Below are positions 11,324 to 20,762 of a DNA stretch of 64,000 bases, piece by piece. Source of the stretch: Bradyrhizobium cenepequi (lineage in GTDB: Bacteria > Pseudomonadota > Alphaproteobacteria > Rhizobiales > Xanthobacteraceae); the NCBI RefSeq assembly GCF_020329485.1, contig NZ_JAGKJI010000001.1:1-64000 (forward strand), written 5' to 3'. Numbering within the stretch: the stretch's first letter is position 1; each line of letters starts with the position of its first letter. The notes under the pieces are model-generated. The model was not told the origin of the DNA. It was given only the letters and a program-made list of their open reading frames with translations, and did not search any database. The position numbers and the translations under genes are program-made.

Positions 11324-12232
11324 TTACATCGCCACGCTGCGCAATCCGAAATTGCGTGCCTGGTTCTGCAGCACGGGCGTCACCGCTTCGATCAGCCGTG
11401 CGGCGGCGGCATCCACGGAAAGTCCGGCGGTATCGACCACGGCGGAAGCACGCGAATAGAGCGGCTCGCGGCTGAGCAAAATGTTGCGCAGTTCCGCCAT
11501 CGCCGAGCGATCGTCGGCCATCGGCCGCAGGTCGCCTTGGCGGCGCACCCGCGCCATATGCTCCTCCGGCTCGGCCTTCAGCCAGATCGTGTAGAACGAC
11601 GACAGGATCAGGTCGAAGGTCAGGGGCTCGGAGACGATGCCACCGCCGGTCGCCAGCACCATCAGCTCGTTCCGCGCCAGCAATTGCTTCAGCGCGGCCT
11701 GCTCCATGCGCCGGAAACCTTCCAGGCCGTAAAGCGCGATGATCTCGGCGATCGAGAGGCCGTTCTCGCGCTCGACTTCCTTGTTGAGCTCGACAAAGCT
11801 CCAGCCGATCCGCTTAGCCAGCATCTTGCCGAGCGTGGATTTGCCGGCGCCGCGCAGCCCGATCAGGGCAATGCCAGAGAATGAGGAGCGCCGCGGCGCG
11901 GATGCGCTGCCATCGACGAGGATGTCCTTGGCGTGGGCGATCTGCTCCGGCGTTGCCTTGCGCAGGAGGTCGCGGATCACGGCCCAGTCCGGCGCCGGCT
12001 CGGTGGAGGGAATCAGGTCTTCCAGATGCGCGCCCATCGCGTGCGACACCCGGCGCAGCAGCACGATCGAGACATTGCCCTTGCCGCTTTCGAGCTGCGC
12101 GATATAGCGTTCCGAAATTCCCGAAACCTTGGCGAGCACTTTCCGCGACATGCCGCGCAACGCGCGCATTGTGCGCACGCGCTGGCCGAGCTGTTCCAGG
12201 AAGTCGGTTTCGGGATCGCCTTGGTCTGTCAT
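11324..12232 (-). CDS. boxR: BoxR-type benzoyl-CoA-responsive regulator (XRE plus shikimate-kinase-like domain)
   Basis: 302 residues from the ATG at 12232. A TTG at 12286 would add 18 residues not related to the family. An XRE helix-turn-helix (about 14-70: LGQRVRTMRALRGMSRKVLA, SGISERYIAQLESGKGNVS) is followed by a shikimate-kinase-like P-loop domain (GLRGAGKST near 126-134). This fusion is diagnostic of BoxR/BzdR, repressors released by benzoyl-CoA bound in the kinase-like domain. It is divergent from the benzoate-CoA ligase gene. Two TGCA-N6-TGCA motifs of the type known for BzdR/BoxR lie before boxC, not in the boxR-bclA gap. Confidence 0.93.
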   Translation of the reverse strand: MTDQGDPETDFLEQLGQRVRTMRALRGMSRKVLAKVSGISERYIAQLESGKGNVSIVLLRRVSHAMGAHLEDLIPSTEPAPDWAVIRDLLRKATPEQIAHAKDILVDGSASAPRRSSFSGIALIGLRGAGKSTLGKMLAKRIGWSFVELNKEVERENGLSIAEIIALYGLEGFRRMEQAALKQLLARNELMVLATGGGIVSEPLTFDLILSSFYTIWLKAEPEEHMARVRRQGDLRPMADDRSAMAELRNILLSREPLYSRASAVVDTAGLSVDAAAARLIEAVTPVLQNQARNFGLRSVAM

Positions 12233-12369
12233 GTCCCCCCGCAAAGGAGTCGCAGGAAGAATAGTGCCGACGAGGATTGACAGCAAGCCGCTCCGGTGGC
12301 CTTCTATGAATTATAATTCTTAAAATCTGGGAGAGACGTCGTGACGCGCATGGGCGTGAGGAGCGGGGC
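12233..12369. promoter_or_regulatory. boxR/bclA divergent control region
   Basis: This 137-bp gap holds a perfect 12-bp palindrome GAATTATAATTC (12308-12319) that contains TATAAT on both strands. It is the only AT-rich stretch here and probably carries the -10 of one or both genes. No TGCA tetranucleotide is present, so the operator motif seen before boxC is absent. A TTGACA at 12277-12282 is too far (29 bp) from TATAAT to pair with it. Confidence 0.45.
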
Positions 12370-13902
12370 ATGAGCGGCACCTCCTACAATGCGGTGACCT
12401 GGCTGCTGGACCGCAATGTCGACGAGGGCCGCGGCGACAAGCTCGTGTTCGACGATACGGTCTCGCAACTCACCTATGGTGAGTTGCAGCGACAGACGCG
12501 GTGTCTTGGCAATCTGCTGCGCCGGCTCGGCGTCCGCCGCGAGGAGCGTGTGGCGATGATCATGCTCGACACGGTCGATTTCCCGATCGTGTTTTTGGGT
12601 GCGATCCGTGCCGGCGTGGTGCCGGTGCCGCTGAACACGCTGCTCACCGCAGATCAATATGCCTATGTGCTCGCCGACTGTCGCGCGCGGGTGCTGTTCA
12701 TCTCCGAAGCGCTGCTGCCGGTCGTCAAAGACATCGTCGGGCGGATGCCCGACCTCGAGCATGTCGTCATCTCGGGTGCGGACGCGCACGGCCACAAGAA
12801 GTTTTCCGAGGAACTGGCGCGCGAGGGCGATGACTTCATGACCGCCGTGACCCATGCGGACGAGCCCGCGTTCTGGCTCTATTCCTCAGGCTCGACCGGC
12901 ATGCCGAAGGGCGTGCGCCATCTACACTCTAATCTCGCGGCCACGGCGGATACCTACGCCAAGCAGGTGCTCGGCATCCAGGAGAACGACGTTTGCCTGT
13001 CCGCGGCAAAGCTGTTCTTTGCTTATGGCCTTGGCAATGCGCTCACTTTCCCGATGTCGGTCGGCGCCAGCACGATCCTCAATTCCGAGCGGCCGACGCC
13101 CGCGGTGATGTTCGCGCTGATGAACAGGTATCACCCCACCATCTTCTACGGCGTGCCGACACTGTTCGCCTCGATGCTGAACGATGAGGCGTCGAAGGCG
13201 ACGCCCGCCGGCAAGCGGCTGCGCATCTGCACCTCCGCCGGCGAGGCGCTGCCGGAATCGGTCGGCAATGCCTGGAAGGCGCGCTTCGGCGTCGACATCC
13301 TCGACGGCGTCGGCTCGACCGAGCTATTGCACATCTTCCTGTCGAATGCGCCCGGCGACATCAAATACGGCTCGTCCGGCCGGCCCGTTCCTGGCTACAA
13401 GGTGCGCCTCGTCAACGAGGCCTCCGCCGATGTGCCGGATGGCGAAGTCGGTGAACTCCTGGTCGATGCGCCCTCCGCCGGCGAGGGTTACTGGAACCAG
13501 CGCAGCAAGAGCCGGCAGACCTTTGAGGGCCACTGGACCCGCACCGGCGACAAATACATCCGCGATGCCGAGGGCCGTTACACCTTCTGTGGCCGTAGCG
13601 ACGACATGTTCAAGGTCTCCGGCATCTGGGTCTCGCCGTTCGAGGTCGAGAGCGCGCTGATCACCCATCCCGCCGTGCTGGAGGCCGCCGTCGTGCCGGA
13701 AGCCGATCGGGAAGGATTGCTCAAGCCGAAGGCCTTCGTGGTGCTTCGCGCGGATGCGAAGATTGATGGCCTGAACGAGGCGCTGAAGGAATACGTCAAG
13801 CAGAAGATCGGCCCGTGGAAATATCCGCGCTGGATCGACGTGGTCGAGAGCCTGCCCAAGACCGCGACGGGAAAGATCCAGCGCTTCAAGCTGCGCCAGT
13901 GA
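12370..13902 (+). CDS. bclA: Benzoate-CoA ligase
   Basis: 510 residues; converts benzoate, CoA and ATP to benzoyl-CoA, AMP and pyrophosphate in the cytoplasm. The adenylate-forming signatures are the P-loop YSSGSTGMPKGVRH (171-184), DGVGSTELLH near 316-325, TGDKY near 394, and the catalytic C-terminal Lys in KTATGKIQ (K502). The sequence (for example FFAYGLGNALTFPMSVGAS) is that of the BclA/BadA benzoate-CoA ligase clade, and the box genes next to it support the assignment. GAGGAG lies 6 nt before the start. It is the first gene of the forward-strand box group. Confidence 0.93.
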   Translation: MSGTSYNAVTWLLDRNVDEGRGDKLVFDDTVSQLTYGELQRQTRCLGNLLRRLGVRREERVAMIMLDTVDFPIVFLGAIRAGVVPVPLNTLLTADQYAYVLADCRARVLFISEALLPVVKDIVGRMPDLEHVVISGADAHGHKKFSEELAREGDDFMTAVTHADEPAFWLYSSGSTGMPKGVRHLHSNLAATADTYAKQVLGIQENDVCLSAAKLFFAYGLGNALTFPMSVGASTILNSERPTPAVMFALMNRYHPTIFYGVPTLFASMLNDEASKATPAGKRLRICTSAGEALPESVGNAWKARFGVDILDGVGSTELLHIFLSNAPGDIKYGSSGRPVPGYKVRLVNEASADVPDGEVGELLVDAPSAGEGYWNQRSKSRQTFEGHWTRTGDKYIRDAEGRYTFCGRSDDMFKVSGIWVSPFEVESALITHPAVLEAAVVPEADREGLLKPKAFVVLRADAKIDGLNEALKEYVKQKIGPWKYPRWIDVVESLPKTATGKIQRFKLRQ

Positions 13903-13918
13903 GCGCGCGCCAATTACG

Positions 13919-14021
13919 CCGTCATTCCGGGGCGCGCGAAGCGCGAGCTACGATGCGCAATTGCGCATCGGAGAATCTCGAGATTCCGGATCGGCTCGCT
14001 TCGCGATCCGTCCGGAATGAC
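13919..14021. repeat. Palindromic repeat between bclA and the hydrolase gene
   Basis: The ends GTCATTCCGG...and...CCGGAATGAC pair, with inner palindromes GATGCGCAATTGCGCATC (13951-13968) and GATCGGCTCGCTTCGCGATC. It is a dispersed Bradyrhizobium-type intergenic palindrome inserted within the box transcription unit, leaving 16 bp before the next start. Confidence 0.7.
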
Positions 14022-14037
14022 TGAGCAGGAACACACT

Positions 14038-14847
14038 ATGGCAAACCTCGCACCATCCGGCTTCCTCCACATCGGCAGCTCCGATCTCGAATACCGCATG
14101 ATCGGTCCGGCTCCCGACAGCGCGCCGACCATCGTGATGCTGCATGAAGGCCTGGGTTCGGTCGGGCTGTGGGGCGACTTCCCGGAAAGACTTCAGGCCG
14201 CAACCGGCGCCGGCGTGTTCGCCTATTCGCGCGCCGGCTATGGCGGCTCGAGCCCGGCGAAGCTGCCGCGGCCGCTCGACTATATGCACATCGAGGCGCA
14301 GGAGGTGCTGCCGAAGCTGCTGGATGCCATCGGCTTCCGCTGCGGGCTCCTGGTCGGGCATTCCGACGGCGCGTCGATCGCCGCGATCTATGCCGGCTCG
14401 CACCAGGATCATCGTCTGCAGGGTATTGCACTGATCGCGCCGCACTTCATCGTCGAGGACATCTCGGTGAACTCGATCGCGGAAATCAAGACGACCTATG
14501 AGACCACGAACCTGAAGGAGAAGCTGGCGCGCTGGCACAAGGACGTCGACAACGCCTTCTACGGCTGGAACGGCGCCTGGCTCGATCCGAAATTCCGCGA
14601 TTGGGATATTTCCGAATTCCTTGCCTACATCCGCGTGCCCATCGCGATCCTGCAGGGCGAGGCCGATCAGTACGGCACGCTGCGCCAGGTCGAGATCGCC
14701 AAGGAGGAGTGCTACTGCCCGGTCGATGTCACGGTCATCCCCGGCGCGGGACATTCGCCGCACCGCGAGGCGCCGGAGGCAACACTCCGGGCAATCGCGG
14801 ATTTCGCCGAGGCAACCTTACGAACCGATCAGCCGCAGATGGCCTAG
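14038..14847 (+). CDS. Alpha/beta hydrolase of the box cluster
   Basis: 269 residues from the ATG at 14038; an ATG at 14017 lies in the repeat and adds 7 unrelated residues. Alpha/beta fold features: oxyanion-loop segment MLHEGLGSVG near 41, nucleophile Ser in VGHSDGASIA near 111, Asp in LQGEADQYG near 213, and His in PGAGHSPHREAP near 242. A hydrolase of this kind sits in many aerobic benzoyl-CoA clusters and has been proposed to act on a lactone or CoA-thioester by-product; the exact substrate is not established. It ends just before the IS1595 insertion. Confidence 0.82.
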   Translation: MANLAPSGFLHIGSSDLEYRMIGPAPDSAPTIVMLHEGLGSVGLWGDFPERLQAATGAGVFAYSRAGYGGSSPAKLPRPLDYMHIEAQEVLPKLLDAIGFRCGLLVGHSDGASIAAIYAGSHQDHRLQGIALIAPHFIVEDISVNSIAEIKTTYETTNLKEKLARWHKDVDNAFYGWNGAWLDPKFRDWDISEFLAYIRVPIAILQGEADQYGTLRQVEIAKEECYCPVDVTVIPGAGHSPHREAPEATLRAIADFAEATLRTDQPQMA

Positions 14848-14882
14848 ATTACTGACCCGCCGAGCGATCTTCACGAACATGA

Positions 14883-14890
14883 AACAAAGT
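14883..14890 (+). repeat. Left copy of the 8-bp target-site duplication
   Basis: AACAAAGT directly precedes the left end of the insertion element and is repeated exactly at 17412-17419. Eight base pairs is the duplication length known for IS1595-family elements. Confidence 0.9.
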
Positions 14891-14953
14891 GCACATTATA
14901 ACCTTGACAAAGCAGGCGGACCATAGGTAGGGTTCCAGCATTGGAGCAACCCT

Positions 14954-15904
14954 ATGACCGACCTTCTCAAAAACCCGATCTTCCAAGACGAAACCGCCGC
15001 CCGCGAATGGCTTGAAGCCCGCGTCTGGGCGAACGGTCGGGTTTGCCCGCATTGCGGCAACGCGGATCAGGAGAAGATCACCAAGCTTGAGGGCAAGGCG
15101 CATCGCCCCGGCGTGTACCAGTGCAACGAACCGGACTGCCGCCAGCAGTTCACAGTAACCGTGAATACGGTGTTCGAGCGCTCCAAAATCCCGCTCACGA
15201 AGTGGCTCGCCGCGCTGTTCCTGATGACGGCTTCCAAAAAGGGAATTAGCGCCCATCAGGTGCACCGCATGCTCGGTATCAGCTACAAATCGACTTGGTT
15301 CATGATGCATCGCCTGCGTGAAGCGATGCGCGTTGGCGGACTGATGCCACCCATGGGCGAAGAAGGCGGCGCGGTAGAAGTTGACGAAACCTACATTGGC
15401 CGCCTGCAAGGCGTTAAGAAGAAGCGCGCGGGCGCGGCTCATAAGAACACCGTGCTTTCGCTGCTTGACCGCAAGACCGGCAAGGTCCGCAGCTTCCACG
15501 TTGCCAACGCGACCGTGAACGAAGTTGCTCCCATCGTGCGCGCCAACATCTCGAAAGAAGCGCACCTGATGACGGATCAGGCCAAGATTTATCTAAGGCT
15601 TGGCGCTGAGTTCTCGCGCCATGATAGCGTCAACCATCAGGAGGACGAATACGTTCGCCGCGATGGTGATACCGTGATCACAACCAACACCATTGAAAGC
15701 TACTCAGTGTTCAAGCGCGGCATGCTCGGCACCTACCAGCACTGCGCCGAAAAGCATCTGCATCGCTATCTGGCCGAATTTGATTTCCGCCATAATAACC
15801 GCATCGCGCTAGGTGTTGATGATACGGACCGCGCTAACGAACTCGCCAAAGGCATCGTTGGCAAGCGCCTTACCTATCGACGGCCTAACCGCTCCGACAT
15901 TTAA
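14954..15904 (+). CDS. IS1595-family (ISXO2-like) transposase
   Basis: 316 residues. An N-terminal zinc ribbon (CPHCG at 31-35 and CNEPDC near 58-63) is followed by the DDE-type catalytic domain: VEVDETYIG (first Asp near 141), LMTDQAKIYLRLG (second Asp near 203) and TNTIESYSVFKRGMLGTYQ (N/E-containing third block near 242). The frame is intact. TTGACA in the left terminal repeat (14903-14908) probably serves as -35 of its promoter. The reading after the stop (LNAKRFLRWKRKQPKPKPKF) looks like a basic tail, so a shortened C-terminus is possible. Confidence 0.93.
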   Translation: MTDLLKNPIFQDETAAREWLEARVWANGRVCPHCGNADQEKITKLEGKAHRPGVYQCNEPDCRQQFTVTVNTVFERSKIPLTKWLAALFLMTASKKGISAHQVHRMLGISYKSTWFMMHRLREAMRVGGLMPPMGEEGGAVEVDETYIGRLQGVKKKRAGAAHKNTVLSLLDRKTGKVRSFHVANATVNEVAPIVRANISKEAHLMTDQAKIYLRLGAEFSRHDSVNHQEDEYVRRDGDTVITTNTIESYSVFKRGMLGTYQHCAEKHLHRYLAEFDFRHNNRIALGVDDTDRANELAKGIVGKRLTYRRPNRSDI

Positions 15905-16209
15905 ACTTAACGCCAAACGCTTCCTGCGCTGGAAGCGCAAGCAGCCGAAACCGAAGCCCAAATTCGTCAAATACTGGCGCACCCGCTGAACCTGTTCATA
16001 AGTATACAGAACAGGGACGGCGACTCGACTCCAGAATGTGAAGGTTTCACTCTCGGAAGTTGATTCGGACGCCGCCCTTCGCGGGAGCGGCGTCCGATCC
16101 TGCAATCAACCTTGGAGCCGGTCGCAGGATGAAGGGTGGTAACAGTCAGGACATTGAGTCCTAACTTTCCTTTAGTCAATACCGGCTCCGTATCACAGAG
16201 GAGCCGAAA
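15905..16209 (+). other. Internal non-coding stretch of the IS element
   Basis: About 300 bases between transposase and the Cas2-like gene. It begins with a short basic reading frame (to about 15989) that may be the lost transposase tail, then holds a strong hairpin (16066-16096). The last part carries the ribosome binding site AGAGGAG for the next gene. No other gene is visible. Confidence 0.5.
16066..16096 (+). terminator. Strong hairpin after the transposase gene
   Basis: Perfect 10-bp arms CGGACGCCGC (16066-16075) and GCGGCGTCCG (16087-16096) with an 11-base loop. No T-run follows, so termination is not certain; it could instead insulate the passenger genes or be a structured RNA of the element. 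Confidence 0.4.
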
Positions 16210-16491
16210 ATGGCTTTCAACTTGTTTATCTCTTACGATCTCGACAAACCGGGTCAGTCCTATGACGCGGTGCATGAACGCATCAAATCACTTGGCCGCT
16301 GGTACCACGCTCAGCAATCGTTGTTTTACGTCCATACTGAATTCACCCCCGAGCAAGCCCATCGGCATGTGTTCGCGGTTATGGACCGCAACGATAGGCT
16401 GATCGTGGTTGATGCTACTGGGGCTTGGATGTATCCGGCCCCGCCCAGCGATGTCGAAGCCATCAATCGCGTTTGGTTCGAGATGGCATAA
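16210..16491 (+). CDS. Cas2-like / SinR-type small protein carried by the IS element
   Basis: 93 residues, MAFNLFISYDLDKPGQSYDA. The pattern beta strand ending in YDL, a helix containing IKSLGRWYHAQQ, a strand SLFYVHTEF, a helix TPEQAHRHVFAVMD, then NDRLIVVDATG fits the ferredoxin-like fold of the Cas2 group, including the strand-1 Asp. Annotated relatives are usually called SinR-family or Cas2-like. There is no CRISPR array, cas1 or other cas gene in the window, so this is an orphan. The ribosome binding site GAGGAG is well placed. Function is unknown; a nuclease or dimeric scaffold role is only inferred from the fold. Confidence 0.72.
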   Translation: MAFNLFISYDLDKPGQSYDAVHERIKSLGRWYHAQQSLFYVHTEFTPEQAHRHVFAVMDRNDRLIVVDATGAWMYPAPPSDVEAINRVWFEMA

Positions 16492-16538
16492 GCCGCCTGA
16501 TCCTATCGATTCAAACATTTGAGCCTCCGAAGCCCGGC

Positions 16539-16703
16539 TCACTTGCCGGGCTTCTTCTTCGTTCTGCGTTTCTTTGTCGCCGTCTTTTTCGTTACCCGAT
16601 GCTGCGGCGGGCTCTTCGCGACCACCTTCACGGCACGCTCAAAGCGCTCCATCGCGTCGGGATGAAACTCGATCTCTTTCTCTGACGAGGATTTTGCAAT
16701 CAT
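16539..16703 (-). CDS. Small basic protein of unknown function
   Basis: 54 residues if started at the ATG at 16703 (MIAKSSSEKEIEFHPDAMER). The first half is an acidic helix with EIEFHPDAMERFERAVKVVA and the second half a Lys/Arg-rich tail (KKTATKKRRTKKKPGK). Short proteins of this EFHPDA-ERF type are common in Bradyrhizobium and not characterised. Its ATG overlaps the start codon of the divergent 208-residue gene by 2 bases (sequence CATG). A longer frame to 16778 runs inside that gene and is rejected. Confidence 0.6.
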   Translation of the reverse strand: MIAKSSSEKEIEFHPDAMERFERAVKVVAKSPPQHRVTKKTATKKRRTKKKPGK

Positions 16704-17328
16704 GCGCGCGGCGCCTCGGTACCTAAGACCAAAAACCAGGTTCGACATTCCCACGGAAATTACCCAAGAAGTGGGCAACTTGATAGTTCGATGGGCCTAT
16801 CTTGAGCACTGTCTGCAAACGATTGTCTGGAATCTCGCCCAAGTTATTCAACCAATCGGGCGGCTAGCCATTCGCGAGCCGAGGGCAGAAGAGCGTGTAC
16901 GCTTAATTAAGGACCTAGCCGAATTGCGAGGCATCGAAATTGACGAAACCGCCGCGAGAGCGATTGCCTCCCAATCGCGGGAACTTGCCCTGCATCGCGA
17001 CGTTCTTGCCCATGGGCACTGGTTCTACGATGACGAAACCAAAAACTGGTGTGTTGTACTTTCGCGCGGCAAGTGGTCAGACGATGAGCCTCATCATCGC
17101 TCCCGCAGCGCGGTGCCCGAGGCTCTAAACGTCACAGACGTTGCTCTTCAAGGTATCGTAAAACAGCTAGAAGCAGTCATAAAACTTGCCGAGTTACTCT
17201 CTCAGCAGGTTGAGCAACAGATCGAGCCGCCGCCAGAAGTACCTCCCTCGCAATTTCCTCGTAGGAAACCCAAGCGAGGTCCAAATCCATCACAGCCGAA
17301 GCACCCGCGGAAATCATCGCAGGAGTAA
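16702..17328 (+). CDS. Unknown protein associated with IS1595 passenger modules
   Basis: 208 residues. Residues 1-150 are mostly helical (VGNLIVRWAYLEHCLQTIVW ... ERVRLIKDLAEL ... REL-LHRDVLAHGHWFYDD), and the C-terminus is Pro/Lys-rich (PRRKPKRGPNPSQPKHPRKS). I recognise no catalytic motif; the RD-LAHG-W segment is reminiscent of a HEPN-like R-x4-H motif (R117 to H122), which would fit an RNase-type fold, but this is a weak match. It begins head-to-head with the small basic gene and ends 83 bp before the right end of the element. Confidence 0.6.
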   Translation: MRAAPRYLRPKTRFDIPTEITQEVGNLIVRWAYLEHCLQTIVWNLAQVIQPIGRLAIREPRAEERVRLIKDLAELRGIEIDETAARAIASQSRELALHRDVLAHGHWFYDDETKNWCVVLSRGKWSDDEPHHRSRSAVPEALNVTDVALQGIVKQLEAVIKLAELLSQQVEQQIEPPPEVPPSQFPRRKPKRGPNPSQPKHPRKSSQE

Positions 17329-17379
17329 CCTGAATCTCGGGCGCGCCATCCCCTTGCGGGGCAGCGCTTGGACTAGATG

Positions 17380-17407
17380 TTGCCATGTGCTTTGTCAAGG
17401 TTATAAT
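17380..17407 (+). promoter_or_regulatory. Outward promoter at the right end of the IS element, reading into boxC
   Basis: TTGCCA (17380-17385) and a perfect TATAAT (17402-17407) are separated by 16 bp; the -10 is inside the terminal inverted repeat. The predicted start of transcription (about 17414) falls inside the first TGCA-N6-TGCA motif. The left end has the same -10 facing outward toward the hydrolase gene, but there it lacks the TTGCCA partner. Confidence 0.65.
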
Positions 17408-17408
17408 G

Positions 17409-17422
17409 TGCAACAAAGTGCA
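17409..17422 (+). promoter_or_regulatory. TGCA-N6-TGCA motif 1, probable BoxR operator, straddling the IS junction
   Basis: TGCA-ACAAAG-TGCA. The first TGCA is made by the last bases of the element plus one base of the target duplication; the second is host sequence. In the uninterrupted target (left flank joined to 17420) the motif would read TGAA-ACAAAG-TGCA. TGCA-N6-TGCA is the operator unit established for BzdR and recognised by BoxR. Confidence 0.65.
17412..17419 (+). repeat. Right copy of the 8-bp target-site duplication
   Basis: AACAAAGT immediately follows the right terminal repeat and equals 14883-14890. Confidence 0.9.
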
Positions 17423-17458
17423 TGTTCCCGCGTTTCCAGCTAGACCAATTCAAAAACA

Positions 17459-17472
17459 TGCATTATTGTGCA
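17459..17472 (+). promoter_or_regulatory. TGCA-N6-TGCA motif 2, probable BoxR operator
   Basis: TGCA-TTATTG-TGCA inside the near-palindrome CATGCATTATTGTGCATG. It is spaced 50 bp (about five helical turns) from motif 1 and overlaps a GTG at 17468 that could be read as an early boxC start, which argues for the ATG at 17507 as the true start. Confidence 0.65.
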
Positions 17473-17506: not shown

Positions 17507-19195
17507 ATGGCCGGTGAGGATCGCGTGCTCGCAAACGGCGCGACATACATCGATTTTCAGACCGACCCGTCCCGTTATCGGCATTGGAAGCTCGATGTCG
17601 ACGGCGCGGTCGCGACGCTGACCATGGATGTCGACGAGAATGCCGGCCTGTTCGAAGGCTACCAGCTCAAGCTCAATTCCTACGATCTCGGCGTCGATAT
17701 CGAACTCGCCGATGCCGTCCAGCGGCTGCGCTTCGAGCATCCCGAGGTGAAGGTCGTCGTGATGCGCTCGGGCAAGAACCGCGTGTTCTGCGCCGGCGCC
17801 AACATCCGCATGCTTGCGGGCTCGACCCACGCGCACAAGGTCAATTTCTGCAAATTCACCAACGAGACCCGCAACGGCATCGAGGATTCCTCGGAGAATT
17901 CCGGCCAGCGCTTCATCACCGTCGTCAACGGCACCGCGGCCGGCGGCGGCTACGAGCTCGCGCTCGCGACCGACCACATCATCCTCGCCGACGACGGTTC
18001 GGCCGCCGTGGCGCTGCCGGAAGTGCCGCTGCTTGCGGTGCTGCCGGGGACCGGCGGGCTGACGCGCGTCGTAGACAAAAGAAAAGTGCGCCGCGACCAT
18101 GCCGACTTCTTCTGCACCATCGAGGAAGGCATCAAGGGCAAGCGCGCCGTGCAGTGGCGCCTCGTCGACGAGATTGCGCCGAACAGCAAGCTCGAGGGCA
18201 AGCTCGCCGAGCGCGTCAAGGAATTCGCCGCCAGATCGACCCGCAACGGCAGCGGCAAGGGCATTGCGCTCTCGCCGCTCAACCGCGTGATCGACGACAA
18301 CGGCATCCGCTATGGCTTCGTCAGCGTCGATATCGATCGCGCCGCACGGATCGCGACGATCTCGATTCAGGCGCCGGAGGCCGCGCCGCCTGCCGATATC
18401 CACGGCCTGATCGCGCAGGGCGCCGCGTTCTGGCCGCTGCAGGTCGCGCGCGAGCTCGATGATGCGATCCTGCATCTGCGCATCAACGAGCTCGAGGTCG
18501 CGATGCTGGTCTTCAAGAGCCACGGCGATTCCGCTCATGTCGTGGCCTATGACGACTTCCTCGAGGCCAACAAGGCGCATTGGCTGGTCAACGAAATCAG
18601 GCATTATTGGAAGCGCGTTCTGAAGCGCATCGACGTCACCTCGCGCACGCTGGTGACGCTGGTCGAGCCTGGCTCCTGTTTCGTCGGCACGCTCGCCGAA
18701 CTCGTGTTCGCCGCCGACCGCTCCTACATGCTGATCGGCTCGCGCGACGGCGACAACCGCCCGCCGCCCGCGATCCAGCTCACCGCGATGAATTTTGGTC
18801 CCTATCCGATGAGCCACGGGCTCACCCGGCTGCAATCGCGCTTCCAGGCCGATCCGTCCGATCTGGAGCGTGCGCGCCGCGCAATCGGCAAGGCGCTCGA
18901 TGCGGAGGAGGCTGAAGAACTCGGTCTCGTCACCTTCGCGCTCGACGATATCGACTGGGACGACGAGGTGCGCGTGTTCCTGGAGGAGCGCACCAGCTTC
19001 TCGCCCGACGGCCTGACCGGCATGGAAGCGAACCTGCGCTTCGTCGGCCCCGAGACCATGGAATCGAAAATCTTTGCTCGTTTGACCGCCTGGCAGAACT
19101 GGATCTTCCAGCGCCCCAATGCGGTCGGCGAGGAGGGCGCGCTGCGCCGCTACGGCACCGGCCAGAAGGCGCAGTTCGATATGACACGGGTTTAG
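17507..19195 (+). CDS. boxC: Benzoyl-CoA-dihydrodiol lyase (ring-cleaving 2,3-epoxybenzoyl-CoA dihydrolase)
   Basis: 562 residues from the ATG at 17507 (MAGEDRVLANGATYIDFQTD), with AAGGG upstream. It has two crotonase-type halves. The first has RSGKNRVFCAGANIRML near 82-98 and the oxyanion segment NGTAAGGGYELALATDHIIL near 142-161, unusually followed by PLLAVLPGTGGLTRV. Length and sequence match BoxC, which opens 2,3-epoxybenzoyl-CoA with two waters to 3,4-dehydroadipyl-CoA semialdehyde and formate in the cytoplasm. boxB follows 115 bp downstream. Promoter and operators come from the IS end and the adjoining host sequence. Confidence 0.95.
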   Translation: MAGEDRVLANGATYIDFQTDPSRYRHWKLDVDGAVATLTMDVDENAGLFEGYQLKLNSYDLGVDIELADAVQRLRFEHPEVKVVVMRSGKNRVFCAGANIRMLAGSTHAHKVNFCKFTNETRNGIEDSSENSGQRFITVVNGTAAGGGYELALATDHIILADDGSAAVALPEVPLLAVLPGTGGLTRVVDKRKVRRDHADFFCTIEEGIKGKRAVQWRLVDEIAPNSKLEGKLAERVKEFAARSTRNGSGKGIALSPLNRVIDDNGIRYGFVSVDIDRAARIATISIQAPEAAPPADIHGLIAQGAAFWPLQVARELDDAILHLRINELEVAMLVFKSHGDSAHVVAYDDFLEANKAHWLVNEIRHYWKRVLKRIDVTSRTLVTLVEPGSCFVGTLAELVFAADRSYMLIGSRDGDNRPPPAIQLTAMNFGPYPMSHGLTRLQSRFQADPSDLERARRAIGKALDAEEAEELGLVTFALDDIDWDDEVRVFLEERTSFSPDGLTGMEANLRFVGPETMESKIFARLTAWQNWIFQRPNAVGEEGALRRYGTGQKAQFDMTRV

Positions 19196-19310: not shown

Positions 19311-20762
19311 ATGAACGTCAACATCATGAACGTCGACTACTCGACCAAGATTCCCAACAATGTGAACCTCTCGTCCGACCGCCAGGTCCTGAAGGCGCTC
19401 GAGGGCTGGCATCCCGGCTACATGGACTGGTGGAGCGACATGGGGCCAGAAGGCTTCCAGCAGTCGCTGGTCTATTTGCGCACCGCCTATTCGGTCGATC
19501 CGCGCGGCTGGGCCAAGTTCGACTATGTCAAGATGCCCGAATATCGCTGGGGCATCCTGCTGGCGCCGGAGGAGGAGAATCGCGTGGTGCCGTTCGGCGC
19601 GCATTATGGCGAGCCTGCCTGGCAGGAGGTGCCGGGCGAGCATCGCGCCATGCTGCGGCGGCTGATCGTGATCCAGGGCGACACCGAGCCTGCCTCCGTC
19701 GAGCAGCAGCGCCACCTCGGCAAGACCGCGCCCTCGCTCTACGACATGCGCAACCTGTTCCAAGTCAATGTCGAGGAAGGCCGCCATCTCTGGGCGATGG
19801 TCTATCTCTTGCAGAAATATTTTGGCCGCGACGGCCGCGAGGAGGCGGATGATTTGTTGCGTCGCCGCTCCGGCGACGTGGATAGTCCGCGCATGCTCGG
19901 CGCCTTCAACGAGGCGACGCCGGACTGGCTCTCCTTCTTCATGTTCACCTATTTCACCGACCGCGACGGCAAGATGCAGCTGCATTCGCTGGCGCAGTCA
20001 GGATTTGACCCGCTGTCGCGCACCTGCCGCTTCATGCTGACGGAAGAAGCGCACCACATGTTCGTCGGCGAGACCGGCATCAGCCGCGTCGTGCAGCGGA
20101 CCTGCGAGGCGATGCGTGAAGCCGGCATCGAGGATCCGACCGATATCGCGAAAGTGCGGGCGCTCGGCGTGATCGACCTGCCGACCATCCAGAAGAAGCT
20201 GAACCTGCACTATTCGCTGTCGCTCGACCTGTTCGGCTCCGAGGTCTCGACCAACGCAGCCAACGCCTTCAACGCAGGCATCAAGGGGCGCTACAAGGAG
20301 ACGACGATCGAGGACGATCATCAGCTGCAGAACTCGACCTATCCGGTGCTGAAGCTGATCGACGGCGAACTCAAGCTGGTCGACGAGCCGGCGCTGACCG
20401 CGCTCAACATGCGCCTGCGCGACGACTACACCCAGGACTGCGTCAAGGGCATGCTGCGCTGGAACAAGGTGATCTCGACCGCCGGCTACGACTACAAGCT
20501 CGCGGTGCCGCATGTTGCCTTCCACCGCGCCATCGGCGAGTTCAAGGACGTCGAGGCGACGCCCGAAGGCATTCTGATCGGCGACGCCACCTGGGAGAAG
20601 CGCAAGAACGAATGGCTGCCGTCGACGGAAGACGGCGAGTTCATCGTCTCCCTGATGAAGCCCGTCACCGAGATCGGCAAGTTCGCCTCCTGGATCGCGC
20701 CGCCGAAAGTAGGTATCGACAACAAGCCCGGCGATTTCGAGTATGTGAAGATCGAGTCGTGA
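19311..20762 (+). CDS. boxB: Benzoyl-CoA 2,3-epoxidase, oxygenase component BoxB
   Basis: 483 residues; the diiron component that, with reductase BoxA, epoxidises benzoyl-CoA using O2 and NADPH. The carboxylate-bridged diiron ligands can be placed by the family pattern: E126 (GDTEPAS), E156 and H159 (NVEEGRH), D217 (FTDRDG), E246 and H249 (TEEAHHMF). No residue is missing. Length matches characterised BoxB. GGAGG is 5 nt before the ATG. The reductase gene boxA, often adjacent in other bacteria, is absent from the window. Confidence 0.96.
   Translation: MNVNIMNVDYSTKIPNNVNLSSDRQVLKALEGWHPGYMDWWSDMGPEGFQQSLVYLRTAYSVDPRGWAKFDYVKMPEYRWGILLAPEEENRVVPFGAHYGEPAWQEVPGEHRAMLRRLIVIQGDTEPASVEQQRHLGKTAPSLYDMRNLFQVNVEEGRHLWAMVYLLQKYFGRDGREEADDLLRRRSGDVDSPRMLGAFNEATPDWLSFFMFTYFTDRDGKMQLHSLAQSGFDPLSRTCRFMLTEEAHHMFVGETGISRVVQRTCEAMREAGIEDPTDIAKVRALGVIDLPTIQKKLNLHYSLSLDLFGSEVSTNAANAFNAGIKGRYKETTIEDDHQLQNSTYPVLKLIDGELKLVDEPALTALNMRLRDDYTQDCVKGMLRWNKVISTAGYDYKLAVPHVAFHRAIGEFKDVEATPEGILIGDATWEKRKNEWLPSTEDGEFIVSLMKPVTEIGKFASWIAPPKVGIDNKPGDFEYVKIES

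Follow-up and report, generated by a model that had tools for sequence, protein, structure and literature searches.

Related IS1595 transposons probably target the upstream operator of boxC in Bradyrhizobium and mend the operator that they split

What becomes of a catabolic operon when a transposon lands directly in front of it? The question is raised by the first 64,000 nucleotides of contig NZ_JAGKJI010000001.1 from Bradyrhizobium cenepequi (assembly GCF_020329485.1, forward strand), called the window below, where a 2,521-bp IS1595-family element with cargo genes (14891-17411, plus strand) ends 95 bp before the start of boxC (17507-19195, plus strand). A first-pass annotation of this DNA had proposed that the insertion rebuilt the boxC promoter and completed an operator at the same time. 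Comparison across 265 genomes of the genus points to a different answer, which we consider likely: related IS1595 transposons target the upstream operator of boxC, and their ends mend the operator that they split. Judged from its sequence, the native boxC switch is probably kept after the insertion.

The element is recognized by its repeats, its target duplication and its profile matches. As the first-pass annotation had seen, the 2,521 bp ahead of boxC are framed by an 8-bp target-site duplication (TSD), AACAAAGT, on the left at 14883-14890 and on the right at 17412-17419. The terminal inverted repeats (left, 14891-14914, plus strand; right, 17388-17411, minus strand) both have the tip GCAC and are perfect as described, although over 24 bp and not 23; an outward TATAAT lies inside the right one. 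The transposase (14954-15904, plus strand; 316 aa) matches PF12762 (1e-29), PF12760 (1.4e-9) and NF033547 (6.5e-53). IS1595 elements duplicate 8 bp of their target, and the present one resembles the family in this respect as well as in its terminal inverted repeats, its cargo genes and its DDE transposase, which has an ISXO2-like domain and a zinc ribbon. The 8.47-Mb window genome contains one full copy, at boxC.

Downstream of the element, the native boxC promoter is untouched. It comprises a -35 box, CTAGAC (17440-17445), a -10 box, TATTGT (17464-17469), 18 bp from it, and the downstream operator TGCATTATTGTGCA (17459-17472), which covers the -10 box; all three are read on the plus strand. 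For comparison, boxC was matched in 86 genus genomes, and 86 upstream regions in 85 of them were surveyed (G011 gives two regions; G077, whose boxC match has no start, was left out), and the remaining genomes of the 265 were covered by searches for the repeat, the transposase and one operator pattern. A promoter of the form CTRGAC or GTAGAC-N18-TATTGT occurs in 82 of the 86 regions, the window's included; the spacer is 18 bp in all 82, two of which have TATTAT or TATAAT as the -10 box. The downstream dyad TGCAYTATTGTGCA, which contains the -10 box, is exact in 78 of the 86 regions, and in these it lies 50-53 bp from an upstream operator. The conserved block of the latter reads CATGAARCAAARTGCATG, with TGAA in 80 and TGCA in two of the 82 readable empty sites; 82 of the 83 surveyed empty genomes have a readable upstream operator, that of G048 being unreadable. 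On the left flank in the window, the target before insertion reads TGAAACAAAGTGCA, the TGAA form. Promoter and downstream operator are likewise untouched in G015. The native boxC promoter is predicted to have one operator over its -10 box and another upstream, and its start is predicted at about 17476 in the window.

An element occupies the same base of this upstream operator in eight of the 265 genomes (the window genome, G000, and G015, G225, G277, G300, G305, G316 and G281), and boxC adjoins it each time. When up to two mismatches to the repeat and its tip were allowed, element ends were found in ten of the 265 genomes; in eight of these ten they lie in the boxC operator, and the other two genomes are G230 and G265. 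Within this BoxR-type operator the target 8-mer reads AACAAART, or once AGCAAAGT, and the tips are GCAC or GCAT. The two TSD copies are identical in all seven genomes in which both are readable, the variable position being G in three and A in four. Among the six elements read whole, length (2,324-3,708 bp) and cargo vary. The G305 element is reversed relative to the others; the G316 copy is decayed, its left repeat and transposase eroded and both junction operators surviving; and the G281 element runs off its contig. Beside seven of the eight elements boxC can be aligned over all 562 residues, and the G281 stretch reaches residue 467. On a host tree of 85 rows, made from two flanking genes by a quick method, the seven occupied rows require seven changes, and the starred branches also force a minimum of seven. 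Genomes with incomplete flanking genes are absent from this tree (G081, G049, G033, G072, G043, G007, G048, G115, G136, G125, G123, G265 and G230), and G281 and G077 were not entered.

The tips of the elements fit the operator. In the window, GCAC yields TGAA-ACAAAG-TGCA at the left junction (14880-14893, plus strand), where the final GCA comes from the element tip, and TGCA-ACAAAG-TGCA at the boxC-facing right junction (17409-17422, plus strand), where the tip provides the first TGC. The boxC-facing junction is TGCA-N6-TGCA in all eight occupied genomes. The first-pass annotation was right about this dyad at 17409-17422, and it omitted the second one near boxC, at 17459-17472, which is part of the intact native promoter; the window holds four such dyads against 0.99 expected, and four were reached in none of 100 shuffles. 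By hand count, GCA tips are found at 15 of 15 box-site ends versus one of 27 other family ends, the latter sampled unevenly across genera and with L160 (Foetidibacter), likely a chance match in coding sequence, left out. All 256 four-base tips were also scored as operator half-sites, with one matrix made from the downstream operators (matrix 1) and another from the right halves of the 82 empty upstream sites (matrix 2). GCAT ranks first with both matrices, and GCAC ranks second with matrix 1 and fifth with matrix 2. The tips GGGG, GGGA, CAGC, GAGC and GAGT, which account for 19 of the 27 related ends elsewhere, rank from 54 to 250; GGCG, GAGG, CGAC and CGCA (5 of the 27) were left out of the ranking. 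The tips of the G230 element, which sits at another site, are GCGT and GCCA and rank from 7 to 15.

The proposal that the insertion completes an operator half-site is borne out in part. A conserved BoxR-type operator is hit, TGAA-N6-TGCA does become TGCA-N6-TGCA, and in the three nearest surveyed relatives (G073, G037 and G081) the empty site has TGAA. However, the perfect dyad is already there without an element in G020, G026, G160 and G170 at least (a count based partly on 30 loci only), and the gain in score depends on the matrix. With matrix 1 it is small, the GCAC junction (TGTGCA) scoring 3.8 bits, the empty half-site (CATGAA) 2.0 and a perfect one (CATGCA) 10.3; with matrix 2 it is reversed.

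The surrounding genes are those of a box cluster. Their order is a boxR-like repressor gene (11324-12286, minus strand), benzoate-CoA ligase (12370-13902, plus strand; TIGR02262, 3.8e-270), an alpha/beta hydrolase just upstream of the insertion (14017-14847, plus strand), the element, boxC (TIGR03222, 3.3e-297) and boxB (19311-20762, plus strand; TIGR03225, 3.6e-279). The regulator combines an XRE helix-turn-helix (HTH) with a shikimate kinase domain (NF006015, 1.1e-131; PF01202, 5.5e-41; PF01381, 4.5e-11). The adjoining repressor gene and TGCA-N6-TGCA at the promoter (natively TGAA-N6-TGCA at the upstream site) suggest that the operon belongs to the BzdR/BoxR regulon. In Azoarcus PN, according to the accessible text of PMC6678401, operators of the form TGCA(N6)TGCA lie in one region over the promoter and in others upstream, and benzoyl-CoA releases the repressor; the proximal operator is enough for repression, and the upstream ones are needed for release. 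BoxR binding and benzoyl-CoA release are described for Azoarcus in the available parts of PMC6678401 and PMC4424350. The boxC region is similar in having an operator over the promoter plus an upstream one, but as far as these sources go PN contains three operator regions plus a site for an Fnr-type activator, whereas here two dyads precede an aerobic box operon.

These features suggest the following course of events. IS1595 transposons would land at AACAAART within the upstream operator of boxC, which is of BoxR type, and we infer that to the left and right of the duplicated 8-mer the element tips restore a BoxR half-site. The boxC-facing side would keep the upstream operator at its normal distance from the downstream one, 50 bp start to start, and the native promoter would still drive boxCB, controlled by BoxR and benzoyl-CoA. 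The insertion would then be close to silent for boxCB and hence tolerated. The insertions at the box site appear to be independent; repeated insertion is clearly more likely than a single ancestral one. A more far-reaching version, which we regard as improbable, concerns the operator at the left junction, upstream of the transposase gene: in a group that homes on one operator and regenerates it at both junctions, BoxR and benzoyl-CoA could also govern transposition, or DNA-bound BoxR could steer insertion.

Several observations weigh against targeting with repair. With matrix 2, the GCAC junction scores 1.7 bits, the empty left half 4.0 and a perfect half 11.4. The outer CA of the half-site is lost at the GCAC junction, which therefore stays far below a perfect half-site. 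The A of TGAA is kept in 80 of the 82 empty operators, so that TGCA alters a conserved base, and this change from A to C could shift the tightness of predicted BoxR binding at the upstream site. The scores from the two matrices thus make an operator that is kept better supported than one that is improved. Nor is the address absolute, since G265 has a GCAT-tipped copy outside the box site, in what we take to be folE; its right end was not found. At third codon positions the transposases diverge by 0.30-0.41, boxC by 0.26-0.32 and the ligase gene by 0.28-0.37, and vertical descent would give the same. Approximately unbiased (AU) tests on the transposase DNA tree do not reject host-like pairs (p 0.10 and 0.22), and the DNA tree fails to set the box-site elements apart from those of G230, G077 and G329. 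The GCA tips, being common to close kin, may reflect descent and not repeated adaptation. The box-site elements give no clear sign of having spread horizontally in recent times, their divergence being that of host genes and the AU tests not decisive. The pairing of G000 with G305 (96/85 in the protein tree) vanished with DNA; split transposases such as that of G265 were not in the tree.

The divergence and the host-like groupings left standing by the AU tests, together with a protein tree in which the box-site transposases and G230 form one clade (support 96/95), speak for the alternative that survives best: a single ancestral insertion at the boxC operator that was passed on vertically while its cargo was exchanged, and that nearly every lineage has since shed by precise loss or by recombination with an empty allele. 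We consider this history unlikely. It needs many precise losses, yet all but one of the 83 empty genomes keep a readable operator, and when six box-site elements were compared with the surveyed regions by blastn, 32 bp in G003 was the only match beyond G000 and G015, leaving the G020 site as the only possible scar. Furthermore, the G305 element has the opposite orientation, the TSD pairs match within genomes and differ between them, and members of a related clade likewise share a site of their own, again in both orientations. The empty site of G020 (L198, 8861) reads AATGTGCAACAAAATGCATG (TGTGCAACAAAATGCATG), which equals the GCAC right junction over the seven bases before the 8-mer. It may be the scar of a lost element; no left element end was found at the site.

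That the right end of the element supplies a working boxC promoter and a new operator, and so rescues ring cleavage, is highly unlikely. The sequence on which the first-pass annotation built this proposal is present, TTGCCA (17380-17385) standing 16 bp from TATAAT (17402-17407) on the plus strand (17380-17407 in all), and the predicted start near 17414 falls in the dyad 17409-17422. However, the native promoter with its own operator is intact downstream, in the CTAGAC-N18-TATTGT form shared by most of the surveyed regions, so that no promoter had to be rebuilt and there was nothing to rescue. TATAAT is part of the terminal repeat. TTGCCA, with five of six positions, did not turn up in another five of the box-site elements (G316 and G281 left out), whose best outward -35 hexamers have 2-4 of six at either end; a conserved outward -35/-10 pair, as in an outward promoter borne by an insertion sequence (IS), was not seen at the element end. 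The least probable alternative is a chance hotspot, in which the element is drawn to AT-rich 8-mers amid GC-rich DNA and the match of tip and operator is coincidental: several other targets of the family are indeed AT-rich, and some resemble -10 regions (ATTATATT, ACTATAAT), but the same base is hit in eight genomes, the tips rank first and second of 256 with matrix 1, and a second copy of GCAACAAAGTGCATG in the G277 and G316 genomes was not hit.

To our knowledge, plain DDE insertion sequences seldom target a particular site, and most known cases of target repair involve integrases that restore tRNA genes. If targeting with repair holds at boxC, an IS1595-type element would do for a transcription-factor operator what integrases do for tRNA genes, and a known family would show an apparently new behaviour, the targeting of a catabolic operator with operator-mending ends. 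The idea lends itself to direct testing, with eight natural insertions to set against 82 readable empty sites and with two tip variants whose operator strengths are predicted to differ. A fixed chromosomal address sets these elements apart from the IS1595 family, for which none was found among the matches listed from the open-licence literature, as far as its accessible text extends; within the same limits, nothing listed on recurrent insertion or operator repair describes such targeting. TnGBS, ISLre2 and ISKra4 (p-MULT 3 and 4) are DDE transposons that, in the available text of PMC3942029, insert just upstream of promoters and are tolerated as the promoter is spared; they do so 15-17 bp upstream of many -35 boxes, and in both orientations when their two repeats are alike. 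Insertion upstream of a spared promoter in both orientations is common to these transposons and to the box-site elements. The differences are that no Mutator-type transposase was found, only IS1595 profiles matching, and that the window element ends inside an operator, 28 bp upstream of one particular -35 box (from 17411 to CTAGAC at 17440) and not 15-17 bp. The IS5-fucAO fusion promoter, by which an IS activates a silent operon (accessible part of PMC11894529), likewise involves an IS upstream of a catabolic operon, but at boxC the native promoter is intact.

A second shared site suggests that one address for one clade may be a habit of the subfamily. In G011, G060 and G088 (L057, L058 and L056), elements of a related clade with the tips GGGG, GGGA or GGCG occupy one common insertion site, in reversed orientation in G088. 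The site lies beside GTTCN7GTAC, which resembles an alphaproteobacterial LexA box, and adjoins a gene that looks comEC-like. Relatives of the box-site transposases were matched in 17 genus genomes at E up to 1e-110; for ten of their loci away from the box site, the flanks contained no boxC, hydrolase or operator. A search for tRNA-type addresses of other family elements gave one tRNA, at the G077 locus, in 13 loci, and the search for plasmid carriers gave 33 records at E up to 1e-80, all below 60% identity. RNA-guided (bridge-RNA-like) targeting was considered and rejected: counting exact matches only, the longest internal match to the target spans 7-10 nt in nine elements, and for each of them at least 7% of shuffled targets do equally well.

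The window element may now be immobile. Its transposase reads TIESYSVFKRG, where those of G015, G225, G277 and G305 have an extra F after the Y; the missing residue adjoins the putative catalytic glutamate, and the enzyme is perhaps inactive. A broken IS1595 relative lies elsewhere in the window genome (G000:C3:170670-171744, L060), with 70% DNA identity and a transposase match in two pieces. The cargo of the window element consists of a 93-aa open reading frame (ORF; 16210-16491, plus strand) without a family match below E 0.001 and a 208-aa ORF (16702-17328, plus strand), also without a family match, whose RDVLAH we take to be an HEPN-like Rx4H motif. Cargo differs between box-site elements (window 16702-17328; L054; L190; L191; L192), and several have an RxxxxH stretch that resembles HEPN. 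In G015 the element additionally encodes a HigB-like toxin (PF05015, 2.3e-16), together with an HTH partner. The cargo is possibly defensive; PADLOC gave only weak HTH matches on six cargo proteins. A hairpin near the right end, covarying by eye, was set aside, since small inward ORFs seem to begin there. Such ORFs lie just inside the right repeat (for example window 17300-17380, minus strand) and share the start ..APQGDGAPEI.. or similar, with differing continuations.

Operators of this type are not confined to boxC. GCAACAAARTGCATR occurs in 137 of the 265 genomes, boxC-site cases counted in, and in 38 genomes it lies 11-22 kb away from boxC (hand comparison). A perfect CATGCAACAAAGTGCATG operator stands at L225 1501-1515, the only such locus read for genes, ahead of an ORF that we take to be a branched-chain-type ABC permease; an adjoining ORF resembles an acyl-homoserine-lactone synthase.

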